40,148 nucleotides of DNA from the IMG/VR virus record IMGVR_UViG_3300030110_003692, positions 1-40,148 of that record; one strand, 5' to 3'. Position 1 is the stretch's first letter. Every line of letters begins with the position of its first letter. Below the pieces are notes generated by a model. The model had not been told where the DNA came from. It did not search any database and saw nothing but the letters and a program-made list of their open reading frames with translations. Origin of the DNA: a virus. The position numbers and the translations under genes are program-made. Shown here piece by piece: positions 3,815-31,691 of the stretch.

Positions 3815-5323
3815 TTATTCCCAATCAGATTCAATTTCAAAAGTCATTTGATAGTCAAATTTTATCTCTTTTAAATAAGGTTTAATTAGGTTCCAGTATT
3901 GGACAGTGGGATATGCAAAGCAATGATCCGATCTTAACCAATGATCAATAGTAGTCTTCTTAATAATGTTATCTTCAACTAATTTTTTCTTATCCAGGTT
4001 CTCTTTTAAATATTTCAAAAATGTTTCTTTAGGTGGTAGGTGTGGTCTCATCTTAAATTTTTCATCGTAAGCTTCTATTAAGTGTTGATTATTTTTTAAA
4101 TGCTCCATGGCCACATCCATAGATAATGTTTTCTGTACTGGTTGCTTAGACTGAGATCTATTTAATTTACCTTTTAATATTTTAGCTGCATACTTAAAAC
4201 TATTATCACCCTTGTCCATTGCAGTGGGTGTTCTATACATCTTCTTTGGTTCTCTTTGTTCTTTACCTTCCATCAATTCTGCTAAACCTCTACCATAACC
4301 TTTTGTAGTTCTACCAGGTTCATTTGCTCTAGGAGTCGGATAAAACTTTTTTGATTGCGAGTCCGAAGATTCTTGCCATTTGTGGGACGATTGCGTTTCC
4401 GAGACTTTTGATTCTGCTTGCTCTATCTTTGTCCAATTCTCTGGAAATCCCATTAGGAACTCCACAAAGGTCGGATTCAATTTGCCACCAGGTTCTATCG
4501 GTTGATTTACTTTGTTCACTACATCGTTTAACTTCGCTCCGAACTTGGTTCCAGTGCCAACCCTCGTTACACTCCAACCTGATGAATTCTTTTTCACTGT
4601 CTCTGGTGGTGCTACTACATCCATCTGACAACTCGCTGATGGTGTTGGAAACATTTGAACGTTTGCCGTCAGATTGTGTTGAGCTGCAGCCTTCTCTCCC
4701 TTTCTCTTGATCAGAGTCTCTGCATCCTCTTGACCCGAGGATCGTGGAGTTGGATACATCCTCACTTGATCTGCTGCTATTCGTTGACCCAAACTGTGAC
4801 CTCTCGTTTTCCCTACTGAAGGTGGTACCTTGTTCACTGAGTCCTTCCAATCTCTTGCGTTCGGTGTTGGATACATTTTCATCGTTTCTGGATCTACTTG
4901 TTCTCTCAGATTCGATGGTTTGGTTCTGCCCTTTCTGTGTCCCTCCATTAATTTTTTTGTCCCTGCTGCGCTTCTCGGCGGCAAGTAATCCATTGTGTTT
5001 GGAGTGGCCCACAATCCAGACTCTAAATCTTTGGTGCCAAGCACCGATGCCTGAAGCTGGTATAAGGAAACATTGGACTTCGAAACCTTCACCTTCCAAT
5101 TCATCTTGCACCTGTCTGAGAACCATGCCGTTTTGGAGGTTAACAAGTCCTTGCACATTCTCCCCAATAACGAACTCGGGTTTGATTTCTTTAATGAGTC
5201 TAAACATTTCTGGCCAGAGATATCTGTTGTCATCTCTCCCTTTTTGTTTTCCTGCGACACTGAACGGTTGACATGGGAATCCTCCCACAATGATGTCTGC
5301 TTCGAATTCTCTTCCTTTGACAT
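3815..5323 (-). CDS. PTP-repeat phage protein, two thirds encoded inside the methyltransferase gene
   Basis: A 502-aa protein whose first about 331 residues are read from the same DNA as the C5 methyltransferase, one base out of phase. It carries repeats of the type (M/F)(Y/F)PTP followed by Ala/Arg/Ser: WATPNTMDY (105), YPTPNARDWKD (151), YPTPRSSG (190), FPTPSAS (225), YPTPRANEPG (328) and YRTPTAMD (363). It also has PGGKLNPTFVEFLMGFPENW (278-297), a signature I know from phage proteins found next to cytosine methylases and often annotated only by association. The last 170 residues have private DNA and are Lys-rich. Translation is supported by AAGGAG nine bases before the ATG, located within methyltransferase codons. 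Its biochemical role is unknown to me. Confidence 0.75.
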   Translation of the reverse strand: MSKEENSKQTSLWEDSHVNRSVSQENKKGEMTTDISGQKCLDSLKKSNPSSLLGRMCKDLLTSKTAWFSDRCKMNWKVKVSKSNVSLYQLQASVLGTKDLESGLWATPNTMDYLPPRSAAGTKKLMEGHRKGRTKPSNLREQVDPETMKMYPTPNARDWKDSVNKVPPSVGKTRGHSLGQRIAADQVRMYPTPRSSGQEDAETLIKRKGEKAAAQHNLTANVQMFPTPSASCQMDVVAPPETVKKNSSGWSVTRVGTGTKFGAKLNDVVNKVNQPIEPGGKLNPTFVEFLMGFPENWTKIEQAESKVSETQSSHKWQESSDSQSKKFYPTPRANEPGRTTKGYGRGLAELMEGKEQREPKKMYRTPTAMDKGDNSFKYAAKILKGKLNRSQSKQPVQKTLSMDVAMEHLKNNQHLIEAYDEKFKMRPHLPPKETFLKYLKENLDKKKLVEDNIIKKTTIDHWLRSDHCFAYPTVQYWNLIKPYLKEIKFDYQMTFEIESDWE

Positions 5324-5495
5324 TTTTTATATCTCCTTCAATTGGTACGTTTGGGTAATTCTTTTTTAAAACCTTTTGGCAAAACTCATCAAACTCTACA
5401 AACTTAATTGTATCAAATATTCCTGTTGAGTGGAGGCCTAACGAGAAGCCTCCAATCCCAGAAAATAAATCTAAAACTTTTAATTTATTTTCCAA
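4329..5495 (-). CDS. dcm: C5 cytosine-specific DNA methyltransferase
   Basis: Transfers a methyl group from S-adenosylmethionine to C5 of cytosine in a specific DNA site, probably protecting phage DNA from host restriction. Motifs appear in the usual order: FSGIGG (11-16, SAM binding), GGFPCQPFSVAG (71-82, catalytic Cys75), GENV (111-114), HQRFRVW (154-160) and SLGNAIVPQM near the C-terminus. Length (388 aa) is normal. Residues about 165-340 are unusually rich in Ser, Arg, Glu and Asn with repeated VSNT, exactly where a second gene is read in another frame (VSNT here corresponds to FPTP there). No partner restriction enzyme is visible, so it is likely an orphan phage methylase. Overlaps the 77-aa gene upstream by 11 bases. 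Confidence 0.92.
   Translation of the reverse strand: MENKLKVLDLFSGIGGFSLGLHSTGIFDTIKFVEFDEFCQKVLKKNYPNVPIEGDIKNVKGREFEADIIVGGFPCQPFSVAGKQKGRDDNRYLWPEMFRLIKEIKPEFVIGENVQGLVNLQNGMVLRQVQDELEGEGFEVQCFLIPASGIGAWHQRFRVWIVGHSKHNGLLAAEKRSRDKKINGGTQKGQNQTIESERTSRSRNDENVSNTERKRLEGLSEQGTTFSRENERSQFGSTNSSRSSEDVSNSTILGSRGCRDSDQEKGREGCSSTQSDGKRSNVSNTISELSDGCSSTTRDSEKEFIRLECNEGWHWNQVRSEVKRCSEQSKSTDRTWWQIESDLCGVPNGISRELDKDRASRIKSLGNAIVPQMARIFGLAIKKVLSDS
5333..5338 (-). promoter_or_regulatory. Internal Shine-Dalgarno for the PTP-repeat gene
   Basis: AAGGAG at 5338-5333, nine bases before the ATG at 5323, embedded in methyltransferase codons for Ile-Glu-Gly-Asp. A near-consensus ribosome site at this exact spot is the main evidence that the overlapping frame is translated. 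Confidence 0.75.
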
Positions 5496-5718
5496 TATAT
5501 TCTTTACGGCTAGCGTCTCTCATTTTTAAGAATTTAAATTTTGCTATCTTTAACATCCTGTCAAACAAAGACTCTGCTTTAAATGTTTTAACAACATTCA
5601 TTATCTTACCATTCACTATAAATGTAAGTGTATTATCTGCATGATCTAACTCTATAGTGAACAACTCTTTAGCTTTAATTCTAGTGTCAACTCTTTTTAG
5701 ATCGTTCTCTGTCATCAT
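5485..5718 (-). CDS. Hypothetical protein, 77 aa
   Basis: Starts at a double ATG with GGAG six bases upstream and overlaps the ribbon-helix-helix gene by 32 bases. The sequence alternates beta-like hydrophobics (ELFTIELDHADNTLTFIVNG) with a basic helical end (LKIAKFKFLKMRDASRK). No recognised family. It directly precedes the methyltransferase and overlaps it by 11 bases, which suggests coupled expression. Confidence 0.6.
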   Translation of the reverse strand: MMTENDLKRVDTRIKAKELFTIELDHADNTLTFIVNGKIMNVVKTFKAESLFDRMLKIAKFKFLKMRDASRKEYIGK

Positions 5719-6905: not shown

Positions 6906-7080
6906 AGAAAAATTGGAGTTGCTTAAAAAACTTCAACACAAAGAACATGCTTGGTCAGCTAGTCTTATGACAAATGGAATATGCACTACTGAAATGCTAA
7001 AGACTGAGAGTGAAATTAAATCTCTTAGAAATGAATTAAAGCACCAAGATGTACAAGAACTCTTAGCTGCAACAGGCTAA
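6895..7080 (+). CDS. Hypothetical helical protein, 61 aa
   Basis: Starts at ATG 6895 with AGGAG seven bases upstream. The protein is almost all helix-forming residues (LSKEKLELLKKLQHKEHAWS; TESEIKSLRNELKHQ) and could be a short coiled-coil hairpin. Its stop codon overlaps the stop of the convergent homing-endonuclease gene, so there is no room for a terminator between them. Function unknown. Confidence 0.65.
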   Translation: MLSKEKLELLKKLQHKEHAWSASLMTNGICTTEMLKTESEIKSLRNELKHQDVQELLAATG

Positions 7081-7505
7081 GTTTTATTAGGTTTTAAAAA
7101 ACTAAACTTTTTTCCTAGGGATTCTTTCGGCTTAATAAACTCATAGTGATTTATAATTTTTAAAAGTCTTTCTCTTTTTACAGTACAGTATGGTAAAAAT
7201 AATTTTGCAAGATGCAATGCTTTTTGATGTGAACATCTCCATCTCCATTGGTCTGTTTTTCCTAATGAGCCTTTGCCTATTCCTTTGAAATGAATACTAC
7301 CTACCTTAACAATATCATAAAAATTTTTAATACAATCTAAATCTGTCATTGCAACTTCCATTGCAACATTCCATTTTAAATATGTTTTACCGTTAGGTTT
7401 TTTACATTTGTATTGAGCGTAATTAATGTTACCTTCACCATCAAATAATCCTGCTGCATAAGCTATTAAATCCTTGTTATCATGGGGAAAATTTCTACTT
7501 AGCAT
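7077..7505 (-). CDS. LAGLIDADG homing endonuclease, single motif
   Basis: Residues 17-28 (numbered from the GTG at 7508) read YAAGLFDGEGNI, a clear LAGLIDADG motif with the catalytic acid position occupied by Asp/Glu. With one motif and about 142 residues the enzyme should act as a homodimer that cuts a long DNA target and promotes its own spread. It begins inside the last codons of the DNA polymerase gene (overlap 11 bases) and ends overlapping the convergent gene, so it is a free-standing endonuclease squeezed between two genes with no intron or intein visible. The polymerase reading frame is continuous through its motifs. Confidence 0.85.
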   Translation of the reverse strand: MLSRNFPHDNKDLIAYAAGLFDGEGNINYAQYKCKKPNGKTYLKWNVAMEVAMTDLDCIKNFYDIVKVGSIHFKGIGKGSLGKTDQWRWRCSHQKALHLAKLFLPYCTVKRERLLKIINHYEFIKPKESLGKKFSFLKPNKT

Positions 7506-9369
7506 CACCCCAACTCTTTCCTAATCCAACGTCAACTACTGAAGGTACTTTAAATTCTATTGAGTCTTCCATAATAGTTTTAATTTTTTTAGCATGAGCA
7601 TTATCTTTTACATTGAAACAAAGCTCATCATGTATCTGTAACATTGGTAAGTGACCTGCATTGTAACAATCTAACATTGATTGTTTTGTTTGATCAGCTG
7701 AGGATCCTTGAATTAATCTATTTAAAGCTTTGTATGTATAGGCTCTTTTAATATTATCTTTACCATATTTTGCTACTGCATTATCAAATGTTTCGGCCTG
7801 GTGTAATCCAAAGTCTCTTGTTTCCCACTTATCAAACCTACACTTTCTACCTTTTTTAGTTCTTATCACACCCTTCTCATCTGCTGCCAACTTACATCTG
7901 TCAGATAGTTTTCTTATAAAAGGTACCTTCTTATTATATTTTGTAATTAATTCATCTGCTTCATCTTTAGTTACCCCCAATGATAAAGCTAATTTATTTT
8001 TACCCATACCATACATTATACCAAGGCCAATAGTTTTAGCTTGAGTTCTTTCTATACCTACAAGATCTGCAACTGTTTGATGAAAGTCTGCACTATTATC
8101 TTTATATGCTTCAACTAATTCTTGAGATCCTGCATATCCATTATCTCCAATAGATGCTGCATAATGCACAGTCATTCTTGGTTCTTGTTGTGAATAATCA
8201 AATGAACCCCATTGATATCCTTCTTCAGGAATAAATAGTGATCTAATCTTGGGACCAAGATCCTTATTTCTAGCAGGTACTTGTTGTAAGTTTGGGTTAC
8301 TCATAGACAATCTACCCGATACAGTTCCTCCAGAATCTGATCTTAATTGTTGTATCTCTCCATGGATTCTACCTTTGACTTGGTATCTTAAAATAGAAGA
8401 TAAGAAAGTGCTATGAAATTTATTTACCTCCCTAGCTTGCACAATCAATTGGGCTAGTTTATGTTTGTTATTTATTAACCAATTTTGTGTAAAGGAAGGC
8501 TCTTTTGTTTTTTCAGTTCGTGGATAGTCTAACTTCATTTTGTCAAAAGCTTTGGCAATCTGGCGTGATGCCCAAATGTCTACTTCTATTCCTGATTCTT
8601 TTTTTATGGCCGATAGTATTTCTTTCTCTTGGTTCAACATTTGTTTTTTTAATTTTTCAGCTAATTCCACTTGGACTCTCACTCCTCGTTGACGCATTTT
8701 TATCAACACCGGAATTAATTGTTGTTCTAGATCCCAAACTGTTTCTAGACTTTGAGTTCTTATTTCTTGTTTGAATCTTTGCCATAACTTTAATGTCAAT
8801 ACTGCATCTTGCTCTGCATAATAACCAACATGTTCTGCAGGTAGCTTCCACATCTCTGCTTTAGGATCTATACCATGAGCTGCGGCAGCTTCTCTTAATT
8901 CTGTCTCTGCTTTTATTTCACCAAGATAATCTACTGATAAGGCGTTTAATGAATAACTAAATCTATTCTCATCTATTAATGCTGCAGCTATCATTGTATC
9001 TACTATTTGTCCGTTGACCGTGATCCCTGATGCTTCAAGCCATCCTACATCGTACTGAGCATTATGAAATACTTTAGTGCAAGGTAAGCTACAAACTTTT
9101 TTCATGTATGCTTTAACTTGTTCTGGTATCATGTTACCACCACCTAAGTGACCAAACGGAAAGTATCCTTGCCATCCATCAACGGCTACTGCAAACCCCA
9201 CAATCTCTCCTTTACCTAAAGCCCAACCAGCTCCAAGCTTTTCATTAATACCATCGTCTCTAGTTTCTAAGTCGATTGCTATCTCAGTTGCACTAGATAG
9301 ATCTTTATATTCTGATGGTGTATTCCACATAGATTTTTTAAAAGTTAATGTAAGTTGTAGTCCGTTCAT
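7495..9369 (-). CDS. polA: Family A DNA polymerase with 3'-5' exonuclease
   Basis: Replicative phage polymerase of 624 aa. Proofreading domain: IDLET (Asp33, Glu35), FHNAQYDVGWL (Asp106) and YAEQDAVLT (Tyr183, Asp187). Polymerase domain: motif A SFDYSQQEPRM (Asp390), motif B R440 to Y452 (RTQAKTIGLGIMYG) and motif C QIHDEL (His579, Asp580, Glu581). There is no 5'-3' exonuclease domain, as usual in phages. The residue matching E. coli Phe762 is Leu448, a variant linked in the literature to slower or temperate replication. Start ATG overlaps the DUF3310 stop (TAATG). Site 3 of the GC-rich motif lies in the exonuclease domain and encodes TVNG. Confidence 0.96.
   Translation of the reverse strand: MNGLQLTLTFKKSMWNTPSEYKDLSSATEIAIDLETRDDGINEKLGAGWALGKGEIVGFAVAVDGWQGYFPFGHLGGGNMIPEQVKAYMKKVCSLPCTKVFHNAQYDVGWLEASGITVNGQIVDTMIAAALIDENRFSYSLNALSVDYLGEIKAETELREAAAAHGIDPKAEMWKLPAEHVGYYAEQDAVLTLKLWQRFKQEIRTQSLETVWDLEQQLIPVLIKMRQRGVRVQVELAEKLKKQMLNQEKEILSAIKKESGIEVDIWASRQIAKAFDKMKLDYPRTEKTKEPSFTQNWLINNKHKLAQLIVQAREVNKFHSTFLSSILRYQVKGRIHGEIQQLRSDSGGTVSGRLSMSNPNLQQVPARNKDLGPKIRSLFIPEEGYQWGSFDYSQQEPRMTVHYAASIGDNGYAGSQELVEAYKDNSADFHQTVADLVGIERTQAKTIGLGIMYGMGKNKLALSLGVTKDEADELITKYNKKVPFIRKLSDRCKLAADEKGVIRTKKGRKCRFDKWETRDFGLHQAETFDNAVAKYGKDNIKRAYTYKALNRLIQGSSADQTKQSMLDCYNAGHLPMLQIHDELCFNVKDNAHAKKIKTIMEDSIEFKVPSVVDVGLGKSWGDAK
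9011..9023 (-). promoter_or_regulatory. GC-rich 13-bp motif, site 3
   Basis: Minus strand TCACGGTCAACGG inside the polymerase gene, read as Thr-Val-Asn-Gly with the codons ACG GTC AAC GGA. The G/C-ending codons are unlike the rest of the gene. Confidence 0.5.
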
Positions 9370-10288: not shown

Positions 10289-11906
10289 AAATTAAATAGT
10301 CTGACCCAATTGGATAGCTAAACTTATAGTCTGTTCTTAATAAATGTAAAGTTTTTCTTGCTCTTGTTGCACCGGTGTACCAAACTTTTCTCTCATCACT
10401 TTTTTCTTGTTTGTTTTTATTTGCATAGTCAGATGGATAGTTACCTTTACTATAAAGTACAACATGATTTGCTTCACCACCTTTTACACTATGTATTGTA
10501 TCTATTGTTATTAATGGATCTTTATCTAATTCTTTTTGTCCATACCTTCTTAACAATCTTATAAAATGTCTTACTTGTTTAGGTTTAAAGTTTCTTCTTA
10601 ATATCCAATACCATGGTTTATTTTTCTGTGTATCTTTCAATGCTAAACCACACCACTCTTTTAAAGTTTGAAAATCATAATCTCTTAAGTCTGGTTCATT
10701 CCTCCAAAACTTATCTAATCTAAATGCAGGGTCATCAAGTTCTCTTATATACTTAACCATGTTACGTGCTGCTCTCTTATCTATTTTTTTATTCAAACTA
10801 ATAGTTGTCCAAGCTTTAATAGCTTCCCATTGTTTCTGGTCAAAACATTTGGTGCCCTTATTATCTTTGTAATATAGGCCTGCATCCTTAGCTAACATCC
10901 TAAGTTCATTTACAGTTTCATTGATACGACCTAAGATATACCAATCTTCTTTTAACGACTCGAAAGGAATTTCTTTAAATGATAAGTAACTTTTAACAGA
11001 TCCTTTAGATTCTCCTGGTTGATATTCTTTCTCTTCACTATCTCTTATACCTCTTCTAATTACTTGAGAAAATCTATGAATTGCTTCTCCAAACCTTTGA
11101 GTCTTTCTTAGTTTTACTTTTCGACCTGGAAAGAATTTAGTAAAATATTTTGGATCAGCCCCATTCCATTTGTATATAGCTTGATCATCATCTCCTGCTA
11201 GATATATTCTATCTACTTTAGGTGCCATCTTATACAACACTGACCATTGTAACGGGGTACAGTCTTGTGCTTCATCTAATATTAAAACTTTAAGTGGTGG
11301 AAAGTCTACTTCTGTTATTGCTCTTTGAATCATATCATCAAAGTCTATAAAGGATCTCTCTCCTCCTCCTGTCTTGTAATGTTCATAGGTATCTATCTTT
11401 CTTTTAAATACTGTAAGTGAATCTCTTTTATAACTCTCCATCTTGTAGGCTTCTTCTGGATCTATTAATAAATTTCTAGCTTTACTGTAGACTCCTAAAG
11501 ACCAATCCTTATACATGAAGTTATCATCTGCTAATCTTTTATCTGAGGACTTAATTACTTTAGTCTGTAATGCAAAATCAATTGTACAATCTTTAGGATC
11601 AAATACTTCTTCTGGAAAGTATCTACGACAATAAGTATGTAATGTTTTAAACCTTGAAAAGTCTTCTGTAGAATAATTTGGAAAAGACTCCATGGCTCTT
11701 CTAACTGCAGTGTTAACGGCTTTGTTAGTAAATGATAAGTAAGCAATATCATTTGGCCTAATACCTTTTCTTAAATAACTTTTAAGTACCTTCTCAATCA
11801 GTGTGTATGTTTTACCTGTACCTGGAGGACCAAAGATCTTTACTGTCTTATGATAAAGTTCCTTAAGTATTTTAAGTTCTAAACTTTCCTGTGTGGAATT
11901 CGTCAT
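10263..11906 (-). CDS. UvrD/Rep-like superfamily 1 DNA helicase
   Basis: ATP-driven 3'-5' type SF1A helicase, probably the replication helicase. Motifs: Walker A GPPGTGKT (26-33), YLSFTNKAV (Ia), LILDEAQDCTPLQW (II), LAGDDDQAIYKWNGA (III), IDTIHSVKGGEANHVVL (V) and WYTGATRARKTL (VI). At 547 aa it is shorter than bacterial UvrD (about 720), having small accessory subdomains. Start ATG with GGAG five bases upstream, within the last codons of the primase gene (35-base overlap), so the two replication proteins are coupled. Confidence 0.93.
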   Translation of the reverse strand: MTNSTQESLELKILKELYHKTVKIFGPPGTGKTYTLIEKVLKSYLRKGIRPNDIAYLSFTNKAVNTAVRRAMESFPNYSTEDFSRFKTLHTYCRRYFPEEVFDPKDCTIDFALQTKVIKSSDKRLADDNFMYKDWSLGVYSKARNLLIDPEEAYKMESYKRDSLTVFKRKIDTYEHYKTGGGERSFIDFDDMIQRAITEVDFPPLKVLILDEAQDCTPLQWSVLYKMAPKVDRIYLAGDDDQAIYKWNGADPKYFTKFFPGRKVKLRKTQRFGEAIHRFSQVIRRGIRDSEEKEYQPGESKGSVKSYLSFKEIPFESLKEDWYILGRINETVNELRMLAKDAGLYYKDNKGTKCFDQKQWEAIKAWTTISLNKKIDKRAARNMVKYIRELDDPAFRLDKFWRNEPDLRDYDFQTLKEWCGLALKDTQKNKPWYWILRRNFKPKQVRHFIRLLRRYGQKELDKDPLITIDTIHSVKGGEANHVVLYSKGNYPSDYANKNKQEKSDERKVWYTGATRARKTLHLLRTDYKFSYPIGSDYLIYVQEKNDK

Positions 11907-13422
11907 CCATCTCCGATACAGTTTTAGTTGTTTCTTTTTTATCTGCTACTTTATAGTCAACAAACTTAGGCATCATAACTGACCATACATTCTTAACACC
12001 TTCATGATAATCAAGTCTATCACAATTAAGAAGATTCAATGCTTCACTAGCACTCTTAAATGTTTTATCACTACCTAAGAATTTTTCAAAAGTAATTTTT
12101 TTGAAATAACAAATGTTTGATGATGAGTCTAGTATAACATAGTTGTCCTTAAGTTTCTCAAAGTCATCTTCTTCTATATGTGACTCAAAGAATTTTTTAA
12201 GAAAATTATACTTCTCTTCATCTAATGTATCTTTAAATTTCATACTTGCATTCTCTACTGCTTTCCTAACTAAGGTAGCCATAAGCATTTCAAATGGAGA
12301 TGGTCCCGACTTAGGTTTAGGTAGTGTCATCCAATAGATACCATATCTAAGTAACTTAACTCTAAAAGATTTTTCGTCTTTCATATCTTCTGGATTAATT
12401 ATTATTTTTTCATCTTGAAACTTAAATGTGTATTCAATTGATTTAGTAGATCTAATAAACTCTACATCTTCAAAGTCATCAATCATATCTGGTACTTGTG
12501 AACCGATACCAAGCTTTCTTAATTTACATAGATCTTTATTACACAGTGGTGCAATTGCATTTGTTTTAGGTGGACACTTATAAGCATAATCTTTTTTAGA
12601 TATAGACTTTGCAAGTGTTTCTACTTCTTTTGGATCTAATGGTGTTGTAAATATTTCATAGTTCCTTTTCTGTAAAATGTTTTGTATCTCATTAATATTT
12701 AAGCTGCCATCGGCTTTCTTCATTTCAAGAACACCAACATTAAATAACAATTCGTTACGGTGGTTTCCTTCCCATTTTTCTGAAATCATTTTCTGAACAC
12801 AAGGAGGATAATGTTTCCAATCACTCTCTGGTTCATACTCTTTAACTTTAATATTATTTAACTGCTCTAAAGTAACAGTCTTTTTAGTTATCATTTCTAA
12901 AAAATTATTTATCATTACTGGAGTATTGTTATCGTTGTAAGCAAACTCAGTAGTTTGATCCATGTTGAAGTAAGGCATGTTCAAACATTTATTCATTGGA
13001 AATACTTCTTCAGAGTAGAAGAAAGTTTTATTCCAATCATTAAGAACTTTAAGAACTTCTTTAATAGGGTACCAATCATTTAAAAATAAAAATAAATGTA
13101 ACCCACCAGATTTAGATCTTACTGCTATTAATGGTAGTTGATTGTCTCTTATTATATCTACAATTTTCTTTTCTGAAAATGTAGTATAGTTACGAGGATC
13201 AATATCAATACATCCCCATTTACACACGTCACCGTTCTCAGGTTTAATCCCAATCCGTGTCTCTCCTTTTAAATGTTTCTTCCATAGTTCAAGAGTAACA
13301 GGTTCGTGGACCGTGAGTACTTTAACCTGTTTCTTTCCCCGTTCATCTACTTCCCCTGTAAGAGAAGTAGTGATGAACAGTTCAGAATTACCCTCAAATA
13401 TCTTTAAGAGTTTTTGCTCCAT
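11872..13422 (-). CDS. AEP-superfamily primase
   Basis: Primase of the archaeo-eukaryotic type (516 aa). The catalytic metal motif is WGCIDIDPRNY (Asp73, Asp75), followed by AVRSKSGGLHLFLFL, which carries the conserved SGGxH (His109), and further acidic segments. A possible zinc site CPPK...APLCNKDLC lies near residue 290, where many such proteins have a PriCT-like or zinc region. The C-terminal half (LLRYGIYWMTLPKPKSGPSPFE onward, in part) resembles the helical domain found after phage AEP primases, but no Walker motif is present; helicase activity is supplied by the next gene. A GC-rich 13-bp motif lies 106 bases inside the gene. Confidence 0.8.
   Translation of the reverse strand: MEQKLLKIFEGNSELFITTSLTGEVDERGKKQVKVLTVHEPVTLELWKKHLKGETRIGIKPENGDVCKWGCIDIDPRNYTTFSEKKIVDIIRDNQLPLIAVRSKSGGLHLFLFLNDWYPIKEVLKVLNDWNKTFFYSEEVFPMNKCLNMPYFNMDQTTEFAYNDNNTPVMINNFLEMITKKTVTLEQLNNIKVKEYEPESDWKHYPPCVQKMISEKWEGNHRNELLFNVGVLEMKKADGSLNINEIQNILQKRNYEIFTTPLDPKEVETLAKSISKKDYAYKCPPKTNAIAPLCNKDLCKLRKLGIGSQVPDMIDDFEDVEFIRSTKSIEYTFKFQDEKIIINPEDMKDEKSFRVKLLRYGIYWMTLPKPKSGPSPFEMLMATLVRKAVENASMKFKDTLDEEKYNFLKKFFESHIEEDDFEKLKDNYVILDSSSNICYFKKITFEKFLGSDKTFKSASEALNLLNCDRLDYHEGVKNVWSVMMPKFVDYKVADKKETTKTVSEMDDEFHTGKFRT
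13304..13316 (-). promoter_or_regulatory. GC-rich 13-bp motif, site 4
   Basis: Minus strand TCACGGTCCACGA near the start of the primase gene, encoding Leu-Thr-Val-His-Glu. Same codon phase as sites 2 and 3. Confidence 0.45.
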
Positions 13423-23822: not shown

Positions 23823-24738
23823 TAAGGGCTCCTTTCAAAAAACCTGTCCATTCATTTCCCTTTTTTTCCCAACTGTAAAATCTTTTATAAAACTTCTGTT
23901 GTTCTTCTAAATGTTCTTGCATAAATTCAGTATGTAAATAATTAGCAGCAATCTCTATAGCACTTCCTGTAGCTATACCCATACTTTCATAATCATTACT
24001 ATAATTTATATATACTGGCCATTCTGCACATGTTTCGTATAATGCTCCAAAGTTATTTGTAATTACATGAACTCCAGAAGCCAAAGCCTCTAAAGCTGAT
24101 GCACAAGAAGTTTCTTCAAATATAGATGGATAAACAAACATATCATAAGTAGGCATCTTTTCTAAAATATATTCATTTGGTTTATACCCAATATAATTTA
24201 CATTAGGTAATTTTTTAGCTTGTTCATATAAGGGTTCAAATCTTTCATCAAAATCTTTTTTAAATTCATCACCATAAACTTCTGTTGAACTATAAATATC
24301 CATTATAATGTTAGGGTTTTTTATTTCTTGCATTGCACGAAGAACAACATTTAATCCTCTCCATGGTGTACAGTGGTGTATTAATTTTACAGGATCTCCT
24401 TTTTTATAAATTTTTCTTTTTGGAAAATTATCAATACCATTTTTTATTACAATAGATCTTTCTGTTGGGATATCATGAAAGTATCTAAATTTTTCATAAT
24501 TCCAATGACTATTAAATACATACCAATCATATTCTTCATGACGAGATTTATTAGAAAAAAAAGGTTGTAAGTTTCCTTGATCCCAAGAATTTTTTTGCCA
24601 AAGAATATTTAATTTATTTGGATCAATTGGAACCTTACCAGGTATAGATGTACATATTTGTACTTGATCTAATAACTCTTTTGAAACATGTTTCTCCAAC
24701 AGTTCCATTTGTATTTCAGTAGCACCTCTAGGTTTCAT
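23803..24738 (-). CDS. GT4-type (GT-B fold) glycosyltransferase
   Basis: 311 aa. The C-terminal half is a GT-B donor domain: KLIHHCTPWRGLNVVLRAMQ, NVNYIGYKPNEYILEKMPTY, and MFVYPSIFEETSCASALEAL, which contains the E-x7-E nucleotide-sugar motif, followed by ASGVHVITNNFGAL. The N-terminal half has an acceptor-domain layout with YDWYVFNSHWNYEKF. Transfers a sugar from an activated donor, acceptor unknown. It starts at an ATGA overlap with the halogenase stop and overlaps the next glycosyltransferase, so the three enzymes are co-expressed and may share a product. Confidence 0.82.
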   Translation of the reverse strand: MKPRGATEIQMELLEKHVSKELLDQVQICTSIPGKVPIDPNKLNILWQKNSWDQGNLQPFFSNKSRHEEYDWYVFNSHWNYEKFRYFHDIPTERSIVIKNGIDNFPKRKIYKKGDPVKLIHHCTPWRGLNVVLRAMQEIKNPNIIMDIYSSTEVYGDEFKKDFDERFEPLYEQAKKLPNVNYIGYKPNEYILEKMPTYDMFVYPSIFEETSCASALEALASGVHVITNNFGALYETCAEWPVYINYSNDYESMGIATGSAIEIAANYLHTEFMQEHLEEQQKFYKRFYSWEKKGNEWTGFLKGALSERNNK

Positions 24739-26255
24739 TTATGTATATTGGTTTTTAAAAATTTTAATAATGTTGGCTTATTATCTATCACATTATTCCA
24801 TTCTTTTATATCATTATATCTTCTCTTATTTTCTGATAAAATTTCTCTTAATGGTAGGTTTGATTTTGTTAAATTTTTTAAAGTTTGCGAATAAAAATTC
24901 ATACCTGTCATTATATAATGTTCACCATACCGGCTACTGAAATATTGATTATCATTTCCAACATCATAACGAACGGCCATGTCTTTATGTATTTTATCTG
25001 TTTTTGCAAATTGTAAATAATTTTTGTTATATATATCTTTCCAATATTCAGTATCATTCCTTTTTGATAATGCATAATGTTCTGCAACAAAATCTGTGAA
25101 GTTATCAAAAAAATGTGTACATTTTAAATTAAAACAATCTTTGTCATATTGTGTTATAGAATCATGTCTTTCAAATACATCTAATAAATTTAACAAAAAT
25201 TCATGAACAGAAAGCAAACCATTTGATTCCAAAGGTTCTATAAATCCTGCTGCTAATCCTATTGCACATACATTTTTATAAAATATCTTTTCAAAACGAC
25301 CAACTCTCATACTTATATTTTTAAAAGAAGAGTTTGAATAATCATGTTTTTTGTAATCTAAATGTTTTTTAAATTGTTCTAAGGCTTCTTCGTCTGTTAC
25401 ATATTTATCAGAGTAAACATAACCAGTACCTATTCTTTCCCAACTAGGAATATTCCATACCCATCCATTTTCTATAGCTGTGCAATTAGTAAAAGGTTCT
25501 AATTCTTTTTCTTTATTTTTATAAGGTATTCTAGTTGCCCAAGCTTTGTTGTTGGGTAGTAAATCATTGTAACTTAAAAAGTTACCACCTATTTTATGCA
25601 TAAGTAAAGATTTAAAACCAGTACAATCAAAATAAATATCAGCCTCAAAATCATCTAAAGATTCTATACCTTGGTTACTTACTTTTATATTTTTTACATC
25701 TTGAACAATATGTTTTACTCCTTTAGGTATACAATAATTATTTTTTAACCAAGTACCAAATTTTGTAGCATCAAAATGGTAAGCAGTATCTGTTTTAAAA
25801 TCAAATCCAGGTAATTCATTATTTTCATTTTTAAAAAGTTTATTACTGTTTACTAAAGGCATACTAGAACTTATAAAATTTGCATAATCACTGTTAGGTA
25901 AATCTTTATTAAAATACTTTTGAACATACCAATTTTGTTTCCCTAGACCTAAGTTGTTTTCATTTGGTGCACCAAAAGGATAATGAAATCCACCATCATT
26001 CAATTTGTAAAAATTTTCAAAACGAATACTTAATTTATAACTAGCATCTGTATGAGGCATAAAATCTTCATCTTTAATTTCTAAAAATTCTAACCACCTA
26101 TTTATGTATCCTAGTGTGCTCTCACCGACACCTACTGTTGGTGTATCTGGAGACTCAATTAAAAATATTTTTTTAGTAGGGAAAGTTTTAATTAAAGTTG
26201 CAGCAGTCATCCATCCTGCTGAACCACCACCTAATATTATTATATCAGCTTTCAT
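24735..26255 (-). CDS. Flavin-dependent (tryptophan-type) halogenase
   Basis: FADH2-dependent halogenase of 506 aa, the usual family length. FAD-binding GGGSAGWMTA (Gly9, Gly11, Gly14), the Lys74 position (TDASYKLSIRF) that carries the hypohalous intermediate, the halogenase signature WVWNIP (265-270, WxWxIP) and EPLESNG (340-346) with the catalytic Glu343. All key elements are present, so it should be active given a flavin reductase. A viral homologue, VirX1 of cyanophage Syn10, halogenates aromatic compounds with a preference for iodide; whether this protein does so is unknown. It is followed by two overlapping glycosyltransferase genes. Confidence 0.93.
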   Translation of the reverse strand: MKADIIILGGGSAGWMTAATLIKTFPTKKIFLIESPDTPTVGVGESTLGYINRWLEFLEIKDEDFMPHTDASYKLSIRFENFYKLNDGGFHYPFGAPNENNLGLGKQNWYVQKYFNKDLPNSDYANFISSSMPLVNSNKLFKNENNELPGFDFKTDTAYHFDATKFGTWLKNNYCIPKGVKHIVQDVKNIKVSNQGIESLDDFEADIYFDCTGFKSLLMHKIGGNFLSYNDLLPNNKAWATRIPYKNKEKELEPFTNCTAIENGWVWNIPSWERIGTGYVYSDKYVTDEEALEQFKKHLDYKKHDYSNSSFKNISMRVGRFEKIFYKNVCAIGLAAGFIEPLESNGLLSVHEFLLNLLDVFERHDSITQYDKDCFNLKCTHFFDNFTDFVAEHYALSKRNDTEYWKDIYNKNYLQFAKTDKIHKDMAVRYDVGNDNQYFSSRYGEHYIMTGMNFYSQTLKNLTKSNLPLREILSENKRRYNDIKEWNNVIDNKPTLLKFLKTNIHK

Positions 26256-30336: not shown

Positions 30337-30547
30337 CTATTTTAACTTTGCCAGACATTGTTTTAAGATTTTTATCTTCTTCATTTAAACCTACATGCCA
30401 CATAGCAATAATATTCATTAAGTTATTACTAAAATGTCTTAATCCAGTTGATGTAAGAATTAGTTTCTTGTTTTTTTTAATTATTTCTATTTCCTTATCC
30501 TCAAATACAATATCACATCCACCATCATCTAATTGTTTAAAAATCAT
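30317..30547 (-). CDS. Hypothetical protein, 76 aa
   Basis: MIFKQLDDGGCDIVFEDKEI then IIKKNKKLILTSTGLRHFSN and MNIIAMWHVGLNEEDK. Short, mixed, without known motifs. It overlaps both neighbours (4 and 20 bases) in the oxygenase module, so it is co-translated with them; it could be a small accessory protein. Function unknown. Confidence 0.6.
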   Translation of the reverse strand: MIFKQLDDGGCDIVFEDKEIEIIKKNKKLILTSTGLRHFSNNLMNIIAMWHVGLNEEDKNLKTMSGKVKIDDKITK

Positions 30548-31086
30548 TCTTTTATCATACCTAACATATTTCTTTGATCAAATTTAAAATTTGCATTTAC
30601 ACCATCTTGATCTACATAATGTAAAAATACTTGACTTTGAAAATCATCATTTAACATTTCTCTTTTGTGTTTTAAATCAATTCCATAATACATCACTGCA
30701 TCTCCAGGCTCAGTAAAAATTTCAGTATCGTCTACAGTAATTGGCCATCTATTTGGTGCACCGTCTATATGAGCTGTAATACTTATTTCACATGAAGGTC
30801 TATCTGTATGTTCTGGTAAAACTGCTCCATAAGTATACATTCTCCAATAAGAGTAAGTAGGATATAATTTTTTTCCAGATTCTTTTTCTACTAAGTTTTT
30901 TTTATTTAATAAAATTGATTCCATTAAAGGATCCGCATAATATCCTGGATCTCCATGAGGGTATAAATCATTTGAAGGTGGATCACAGGTGGGTATGGTA
31001 TTCCTATGTCTATACTCACAATATTTAGAAAATATTGCAAGTTCTGTTTCAGTAAAGAAATTTTTTATTTTTTTAAATTTTTTCAT
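30544..31086 (-). CDS. 2OG-Fe(II) oxygenase, 180 aa
   Basis: Start ATG at 31086 by ATGA overlap with the preceding stop. Iron ligands His93-Thr-Asp95 (LPEHTDRPSCEISIT) and His140 (DLKHKREM); WPITVDDTEIFTEPGDAVMY between them is the typical strand-loop segment with the PGD turn. FLHYVDQDG closes the core. This arrangement is common in a phage/cyanobacterial 2OG family in which residues after the HTD motif bind the substrate, which is unknown. Intact as far as visible. Confidence 0.8.
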   Translation of the reverse strand: MKKFKKIKNFFTETELAIFSKYCEYRHRNTIPTCDPPSNDLYPHGDPGYYADPLMESILLNKKNLVEKESGKKLYPTYSYWRMYTYGAVLPEHTDRPSCEISITAHIDGAPNRWPITVDDTEIFTEPGDAVMYYGIDLKHKREMLNDDFQSQVFLHYVDQDGVNANFKFDQRNMLGMIKE

Positions 31087-31691
31087 TGTGCCCATGCTAC
31101 TATTGAATATCTCTCTCCCTCTGTAACCGGATTTATAAAATGTGGATACATAAAATTTGAAGGAAAAATAATTAATGTATTTTCTGTGTCATTTATTTTT
31201 AAAAAAGATTTTGAATTATTTGGTAAAAAAAATTCAAGTTCACCACCCTTGTAGTCTTTGTTAATTAAAAAAACAAAACTTAAAGCTCTGTTAGATGCAT
31301 GTCCGTGGTCTAAATGCCTTTCAAAATAAGATCCTTTATCATACCTTAGTAAATCAATTTGATTAATTTTTAAATGCACATGATCTATTGGTAAAACTGC
31401 ATTTATATATTTACTCGCATACAAATTAAAATAACTTATAATTCGATTTGTAATTCTTACATTTGTCATACTATCAGTTTCAAAAGAATTCATAAATTCT
31501 GATTTACTAGTTCTTGAATCATCAACCTTGTTATCAGCACTTCTGTCTACCTTATATACTGTTGATTTATTAATTTTTGCAAAAGAAGGTTTGTCTTTTG
31601 CATATTTTTTTATTTTATTGAAGGTTGGTTTATCCAACACATTTTTATATATTCTAATATAATCTGAAACGTAATGACCTTCTAATTCCAT
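31083..31691 (-). CDS. Prolyl-4-hydroxylase-like 2OG-Fe(II) oxygenase
   Basis: 202 aa from the ATG at 31691. Iron ligands His126-Leu-Asp128 (RHLDHGHASNRALSF) and His184 (MYPHFINPV), with Arg194 (GERYSIVAWAQ) for 2OG: a complete P4Hc-type core. GGELEFFLPN and TLIIFPSN are the expected strands, and NQIDLLRYDKGSYF precedes the motif. Substrate unknown. Located between the DUF6065-like gene and another 2OG enzyme, with 10- and 4-base overlaps, which argues that they are made together. Confidence 0.85.
   Translation of the reverse strand: MELEGHYVSDYIRIYKNVLDKPTFNKIKKYAKDKPSFAKINKSTVYKVDRSADNKVDDSRTSKSEFMNSFETDSMTNVRITNRIISYFNLYASKYINAVLPIDHVHLKINQIDLLRYDKGSYFERHLDHGHASNRALSFVFLINKDYKGGELEFFLPNNSKSFLKINDTENTLIIFPSNFMYPHFINPVTEGERYSIVAWAQ

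Follow-up and report, generated by a model that had tools for sequence, protein, structure and literature searches.

The DNA analysed here is IMG/VR record IMGVR_UViG_3300030110_003692, a viral stretch of 40 kb (40,148 nucleotides, hereafter the window), in which two overlapping genes lie on the minus strand (Table 1). One of them, alpha, encodes a protein of the C5-cytosine DNA methyltransferase family, while the other, beta, occupies the +1 frame of alpha and encodes a 'PTP' protein. Both open reading frames (ORFs) and the stretch that they share are present as an earlier interpretation made from the letters alone (the sequence-only reading) had described them, and so are the AAGGAG 9 nt before the beta ATG and the linked repeats, in which VSNT of the alpha frame corresponds to YPTP or FPTP in the PTP frame. 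Beta runs 515 nt past the alpha stop, and this tail is coding and conserved. At its 5' end, the TTG start of alpha overlaps the stop of an upstream ORF (5485–5718, minus strand) by 11 nt (5485–5495), and alpha may therefore be translationally coupled to that ORF.

Table 1. Features of the alpha/beta locus (window positions) and, in the last row, nested ORFs of MM1-type loci (positions within those loci).
Feature	Position	Strand	Remarks
Alpha, C5 methyltransferase ORF	4329..5495	minus	388 aa; TTG start; PF00145 2e-52; phrog_363 3e-74; motifs I–VIII and X, without IX
Beta, 'PTP' ORF	3815..5323	minus	502 aa; ATG start; +1 frame of alpha; phrog_1008 9.5e-30; N-domain, modules, IX-like block, C-terminal domain
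Alpha/beta overlap	4329..5323	minus	995 bp; GC 45.3%
Beta Shine-Dalgarno AAGGAG	5333..5338	minus	within alpha codons E53–G54 of IEGDI
Alpha motif IV PCQPFSVAG	5250..5276	minus	catalytic Cys75; invariant
Alpha motif VI ENV	5154..5162	minus	
Alpha motif VIII QRFRVW	5016..5033	minus	
Alpha motif X SLGNAIVPQ	4380..4406	minus	
Beta N-terminal domain	5012..5323	minus	aa 1–104; wholly over the alpha catalytic core; moderate model confidence
Beta module type 0 (WATPNTMDYLPP...)	4874..5011	minus	aa 105–150
Beta module type 8 (YPTPNARDWKD...)	4757..4873	minus	aa 151–189
Beta module type 1 (YPTPRSSGQED...)	4652..4756	minus	aa 190–224
Beta module type 2 (FPTPSASCQMD...)	4490..4651	minus	aa 225–278
Beta motif-IX-like block GGKLNPTFVEFLMGFPENWT	4430..4489	minus	aa 279–298
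Beta module YPTPRANEPGRTTKGYG...	4238..4342	minus	aa 328–362; almost all past the alpha stop
Beta C-terminal domain	3818..4132	minus	aa 398–502; high model confidence
MM1-type nested ORFs	L114 1457–1882 (MM1 gp14); L117; L301–L380; L381 904–1398		

The match of M.HhaI to the alpha family profile extends from motif I to motif VIII and ends there. A search of the 388-residue alpha frame for motif IX found none, and no target-recognition domain (TRD) was recognisable in this frame, where only low-complexity sequence lies between motifs VIII and X, at the place expected of a TRD. The single-chain plan, which puts every motif, IX among them, on one chain, is seen in control enzymes (L156–L158) but not in alpha; because motif IX is missing, the alpha frame is incomplete, and the sequence-only reading had been mistaken in describing it as a complete C5 methyltransferase.

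Beta is built around modules of ∼35 residues that open with [YFW]PTP or a similar sequence, and its most conserved block is GGKLNPTFVEFLMGFPENWT. No Pfam domain was found in the PTP protein. The module YPTPRANEPGRTTKGYG, unlike its position in the window, lies inside the overlap in a related locus (L042), and 90 close relatives together hold 36 module types in 58 distinct arrays of 2–7 modules per protein, most of the common types occurring at several positions of the array. By analogy, this pattern fits exchangeable recognition units such as those of multispecific phage methyltransferases. In a Staphylococcus phage, a relative of the C-terminal domain sits inserted within an N4/N6 methyltransferase, as would suit a function in DNA modification. 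A contig of a Lokiarchaeota MAG (L063, 3001–3570) encodes the IX block and the C-terminal domain with 51% identity to the window protein; its upstream sequence reads as N, and either a provirus or an error of binning could explain the match.

Several other genes of the window, all on the minus strand, deserve mention. A LAGLIDADG endonuclease ORF (7077–7508; PF00961 3e-6) has a start that overlaps the 3' end of the DNA polymerase A gene (7495–9369), as expected of a homing endonuclease. A primase (11872–13422; phrog_21866) weakly matches the archaeo-eukaryotic primase domain of TOTE conflict systems (PF22548 9e-7). The window also encodes a tryptophan halogenase (24735–26255; PF04820 4e-93; phrog_2928) and a protein matching phrog_2954, which is named ferrochelatase and placed in the auxiliary metabolic class (30544–31095).

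Constraint on both frames of the overlap

With the alpha protein held fixed and codons drawn according to the phage's own usage, the 331 codons of the +1 frame should contain 20.9 stops; none is seen, and the lowest count in 20,000 draws was 9. When synonymous codons were instead shuffled within the overlap, the mean was 5.5 stops, and zero stops occurred in 0.01% of draws. In this phase, each third position at which alpha can change silently falls on the second position of a PTP codon, and double coding therefore predicts a drop of variation at four-fold sites. Such a drop was found: among 23 sequences (the window and its close relatives) the pairwise difference at four-fold sites was 0.48 in the alpha-only upstream part, 0.16 in the overlap (catalytic part) and 0.46 in the PTP-only tail, so that the synonymous-site comparison proposed by the sequence-only reading came out in favour of double coding. 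The outcomes that this reading had named as damaging, a second frame broken by stops or conserved at chance level only, did not turn up, as far as a non-systematic look at the 262 pairs described below can tell.

The start signals point in the same direction. The Shine-Dalgarno sequence (SD) of beta is either GAAGGAGAT (E-G-D in alpha) or GAGGAGGAT (E-E-D), that is, the SD is kept though the alpha residue changes from EGDI to EEDI. In a broader set, an SD precedes beta in 72 of 123 cases, compared to 25% in matched stretches, the signal being less regular outside the close relatives of the window. Alpha starts with TTG, GTG or ATG and shows little or no SD in the alpha/beta group, and beta may therefore be made in excess over alpha. 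Judged from the sequence, both frames are constrained and the second gene is real. The overlap is indeed richer in GC than its surroundings, as had been noticed (compare Table 1 with 30.8% in the alpha-only 5' part, 31.5% in the beta-only tail and 32.6% in the whole window), and it is plausible that double coding, the cause offered at the time, accounts for this.

Spread of the gene pair and partition of the motifs

A scan of IMG/VR with a single protein returned 59 loci and a profile scan 474 matching contigs. Pairs occur also in Paenibacillus, marine, Bacteroides, Salmonella, mycobacterial and Arthrobacter phages. Among sampled genomes, the beta family turned up in 27 of 399 from the class Bacilli and in 3 of 201 from a phylum-level sample centred on a Dehalococcoidales genome. 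The sequence-only reading had left it to a search whether the pair recurs in the same overlap elsewhere: the PTP frame is in the +1 phase in all 262 pairs in which it was detected, in phages and bacteria alike. These pairs were drawn from 280 methyltransferase loci, with the MM1-type set (see below) left out, and include many near duplicates (∼63 alpha cores and 82 beta regions after rough clustering). Some of the 18 loci without a detected partner are LHTSCC-like or Corndog-like and probably diverge too far for the profile to match. The catalytic frames are interrupted in L141–L143.

The motifs are not always divided as in the window. A pattern search placed IX in beta and X in alpha at 172 loci, both IX and X in beta at 23 loci (a partition seen in mycobacteriophages and Bacilli), and both in the alpha frame at three loci (L111 and the single-frame L206 and L214); at the remaining loci one or both motifs were uncalled, often because of contig ends or a divergent IX. 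In mycobacteriophage LHTSCC, gp81 stops after motif VIII, and gp80, in the +1 frame, contains modules, RLNAAFSEWMMGW and then motif X (KIIGNGVVVQQ), a partition similar to that of gp8/gp7 of the Corndog-type phage Ryadel. The alpha frame of Arthrobacter phage 1191A has both IX and X, the +1 frame encoding only the N-terminal domain and modules, and in two loci from Bacilli (L133 and L139) the same motif X is found in opposite frames. Finally, L206 (361 aa) and L214 (420 aa), which are metagenomic, so that a sequencing frameshift is possible, carry motifs I–VIII, PTP modules, IX and X in a single frame. In L109, L110, L130–L134, L206 and L214, a homologue of the IX-like block lies ahead of motif X within one frame, and in a single pairwise comparison the IX–X block of beta from relatives aligned with its counterpart in ordinary C5 enzymes (E = 6e-5). 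The place of the block before X, this alignment and the single-frame relatives suggest that both frames together make up one methyltransferase, and the varying partition of the same motifs makes a single split C5 methyltransferase, with a nested subunit bearing exchangeable TRDs, the most likely reading of the two frames. As far as can be told from motif order, the PTP modules occupy the place of TRDs; the overlap does span the target-recognition region, as had been proposed.

Structure prediction bears mainly on the catalytic part. The PTP protein alone gave a predicted model of pLDDT 61 and pTM 0.35, with mostly disordered modules, and neither this model nor the PTP sequence found a match in the PDB. 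The L206 fusion was modelled with a pLDDT of 81 and a pTM of 0.75, its IX and X segments confidently and its modules mostly not, and the best Foldseek matches of this model were M.HhaI and M.HaeIII, chiefly over the catalytic domain. The prediction thus supports the catalytic part of the putative enzyme.

The C5 methyltransferases of MM1-type phages were considered as controls and set aside as not clean, since they have a nested +1 ORF of their own (MM1 gp14, phrog_16143). In 41 MM1-type loci the segment LSDILEDxVDEKYFLS, or a close variant, lies near the end of the nested ORF; in the ordinary enzymes L156 and L158 it lies in the methyltransferase frame, and no locus has it in both frames. An MM1-type nested ORF is present in phage SpSL1, for whose m5C enzyme methylation of 102 of 113 sites is reported (PMC6755750).

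A methyltransferase probably divided between two frames

We propose, with a probability of about 0.8, that the two frames encode two subunits of one C5-cytosine DNA methyltransferase in which beta would choose the sites and alpha would methylate them. Alpha would contribute the AdoMet-binding and catalytic core (motifs I–VIII) and motif X. Beta, translated from its own strong ribosome-binding site, would contribute the N-terminal domain, the tandem modules as putative TRDs, and motif IX. The two would assemble into an enzyme that probably shields the phage DNA from host restriction, and exchanging or adding a module would change the set of sites. The double coding, the conserved phase, the motif partition, the shuffling of modules and the colinear single-frame relatives are read from the sequences; that beta is produced, that it binds alpha and DNA, that one module corresponds to one site and that the role is protective we infer.

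A conserved protein lends some conservation to the other frames of its gene, and in MM1-type genes the +1 frame is nearly open across the catalytic core, at 0.31 stops per 97 codons, though it is itself an ORF. The PTP frame could in principle be such an untranslated, stop-free shadow of a conserved methyltransferase gene. We rejected this explanation, which is almost certainly wrong, on the grounds of the missing stops and the threefold fewer changes at four-fold sites, the conserved SD and ATG, the conserved coding tail beyond the overlap, and the in-frame fusion of PTP-frame modules and IX in L206 and L214. Programmed ribosomal frameshifting, by which both frames would be fused into one long methyltransferase, finds its best case in loci of the LHTSCC and L130 types, where one +1 shift near the alpha stop would chain I–VIII, modules, IX and X. 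In the window type, however, two opposite shifts would be needed, because motif X returns to the alpha frame, and beta has a conserved SD–ATG of its own as well as an N-terminal domain that the shift product would skip; such a mechanism is very improbable here.

The sequence-only reading had treated the PTP protein as a protein apart, and it might be one (e.g. a regulator, an anti-restriction factor or a nuclease) overprinted on a self-sufficient methyltransferase, as would agree with its lack of a Pfam domain and with the finding of its N-terminal domain also in the MM1-type nested ORF (MM1 gp14 against phrog_1008, E = 5e-4). Yet IX and a TRD are missing from alpha and have their candidates in beta, and relatives split the same motif set in three other ways. 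We therefore judge a separate protein quite unlikely, and the PTP protein is better seen as a subunit with TRD-candidate modules and an IX-like block. The enzyme may, on the other hand, be split as proposed but have its true TRD in the middle region of alpha, with PTP modules that merely modulate: the predicted TRD of M.EcoHK31I sits in the large subunit (PMC3404938), and the modules here are largely disordered in the predictions. This seems unlikely, given that the middle region of alpha is of low complexity, that it is missing where alpha ends soon after motif VIII (L109, L110, L130–L134), and that the modules fill the slot between VIII and IX in the single-frame L206 and L214. As for the two-subunit enzyme that we prefer, we lean towards the further view that the separately translated +1-frame specificity subunit forms a combinatorial multi-target array, with modules swapped between phages both inside and outside the overlap.

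Split methyltransferases have precedents. The gene for the small subunit of M.EcoHK31I is nested in that for the large one in another frame, M.EaeI being similar, and the second gene of the window is likewise nested in the first in another frame. PMC3404938, describing the work of Lee et al. (1995), gives M.EcoHK31I (YGGCCR) as a C5 methyltransferase naturally made of two polypeptides, the large one with motifs I–VIII, X and the predicted TRD and the small one with only IX. The same source gives M.AquI (CYCGRG) as having I–VIII in alpha and IX–X in beta. By this motif plan the window resembles M.EcoHK31I, with I–VIII and X in alpha and IX in a second polypeptide. The nested subunit here is, however, longer (502 aa), with an exchangeable module array and a C-terminal domain in addition; members of the group come mainly from phages, and IX and X move between frames among relatives. 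The M.EcoHK31I sequence itself was sought among plasmids and not found, the matches L156–L158 being ordinary enzymes, and no sequence of M.EaeI was found either. The M.AquI partition, split after motif VIII, recurs in the LHTSCC, Corndog, L109, L110 and L130–L134 relatives. The window differs from it in having X in alpha, an overlap of ∼1 kb and several modules in beta. Tandem TRDs are a feature of the multispecific C5 methyltransferases known from Bacillus phages (cited in PMC8936443), and by position and shuffling the tandem variable modules between VIII and IX are comparable to these; those enzymes are single chains, whereas here a second, nested frame encodes the modules. A Bacillus prophage enzyme, M.BatI, whose TRD is unusually short and whose toxicity is not explained by methylation (PMC8936443), was suspected to be of the type described here, but searches of the phage and plasmid collections yielded no homologue. 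The two-polypeptide split plan is thus already known. In the literature searched, which covered subscription journals thinly and some sources in part, neither the nested modular array nor its spread or shifting partition was found described.

Hundreds of other phages share the arrangement, with the genes labelled as two unrelated or duplicate ones. In PHROG, both phrog_363 (alpha) and phrog_1008 (the window PTP protein and mycobacteriophage beta) are labelled 'DNA methyltransferase', and the label of phrog_1008 is silent on a separate subunit without catalytic core that is usually nested in another gene. If correct, our reading would fix a common annotation error, in which two 'DNA methyltransferases' are listed or one is dropped as an overlapping ORF, and any cloned gene of the split type would carry both proteins, which would affect how cloning and mutation results are read. 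It would also provide a clear and conserved case of long same-strand double coding and an example of the several ways in which two frames can share out the motifs of one enzyme. Through the module array, sequence would be tied to methylation targets across hundreds of phages, and the array could supply parts for site-selectable cytosine methylation. Should the array prove combinatorial, these phages would have a natural modular multi-site methyltransferase and, in a widespread same-strand overlap of ∼1 kb, one enzyme laid over two frames of the same DNA.
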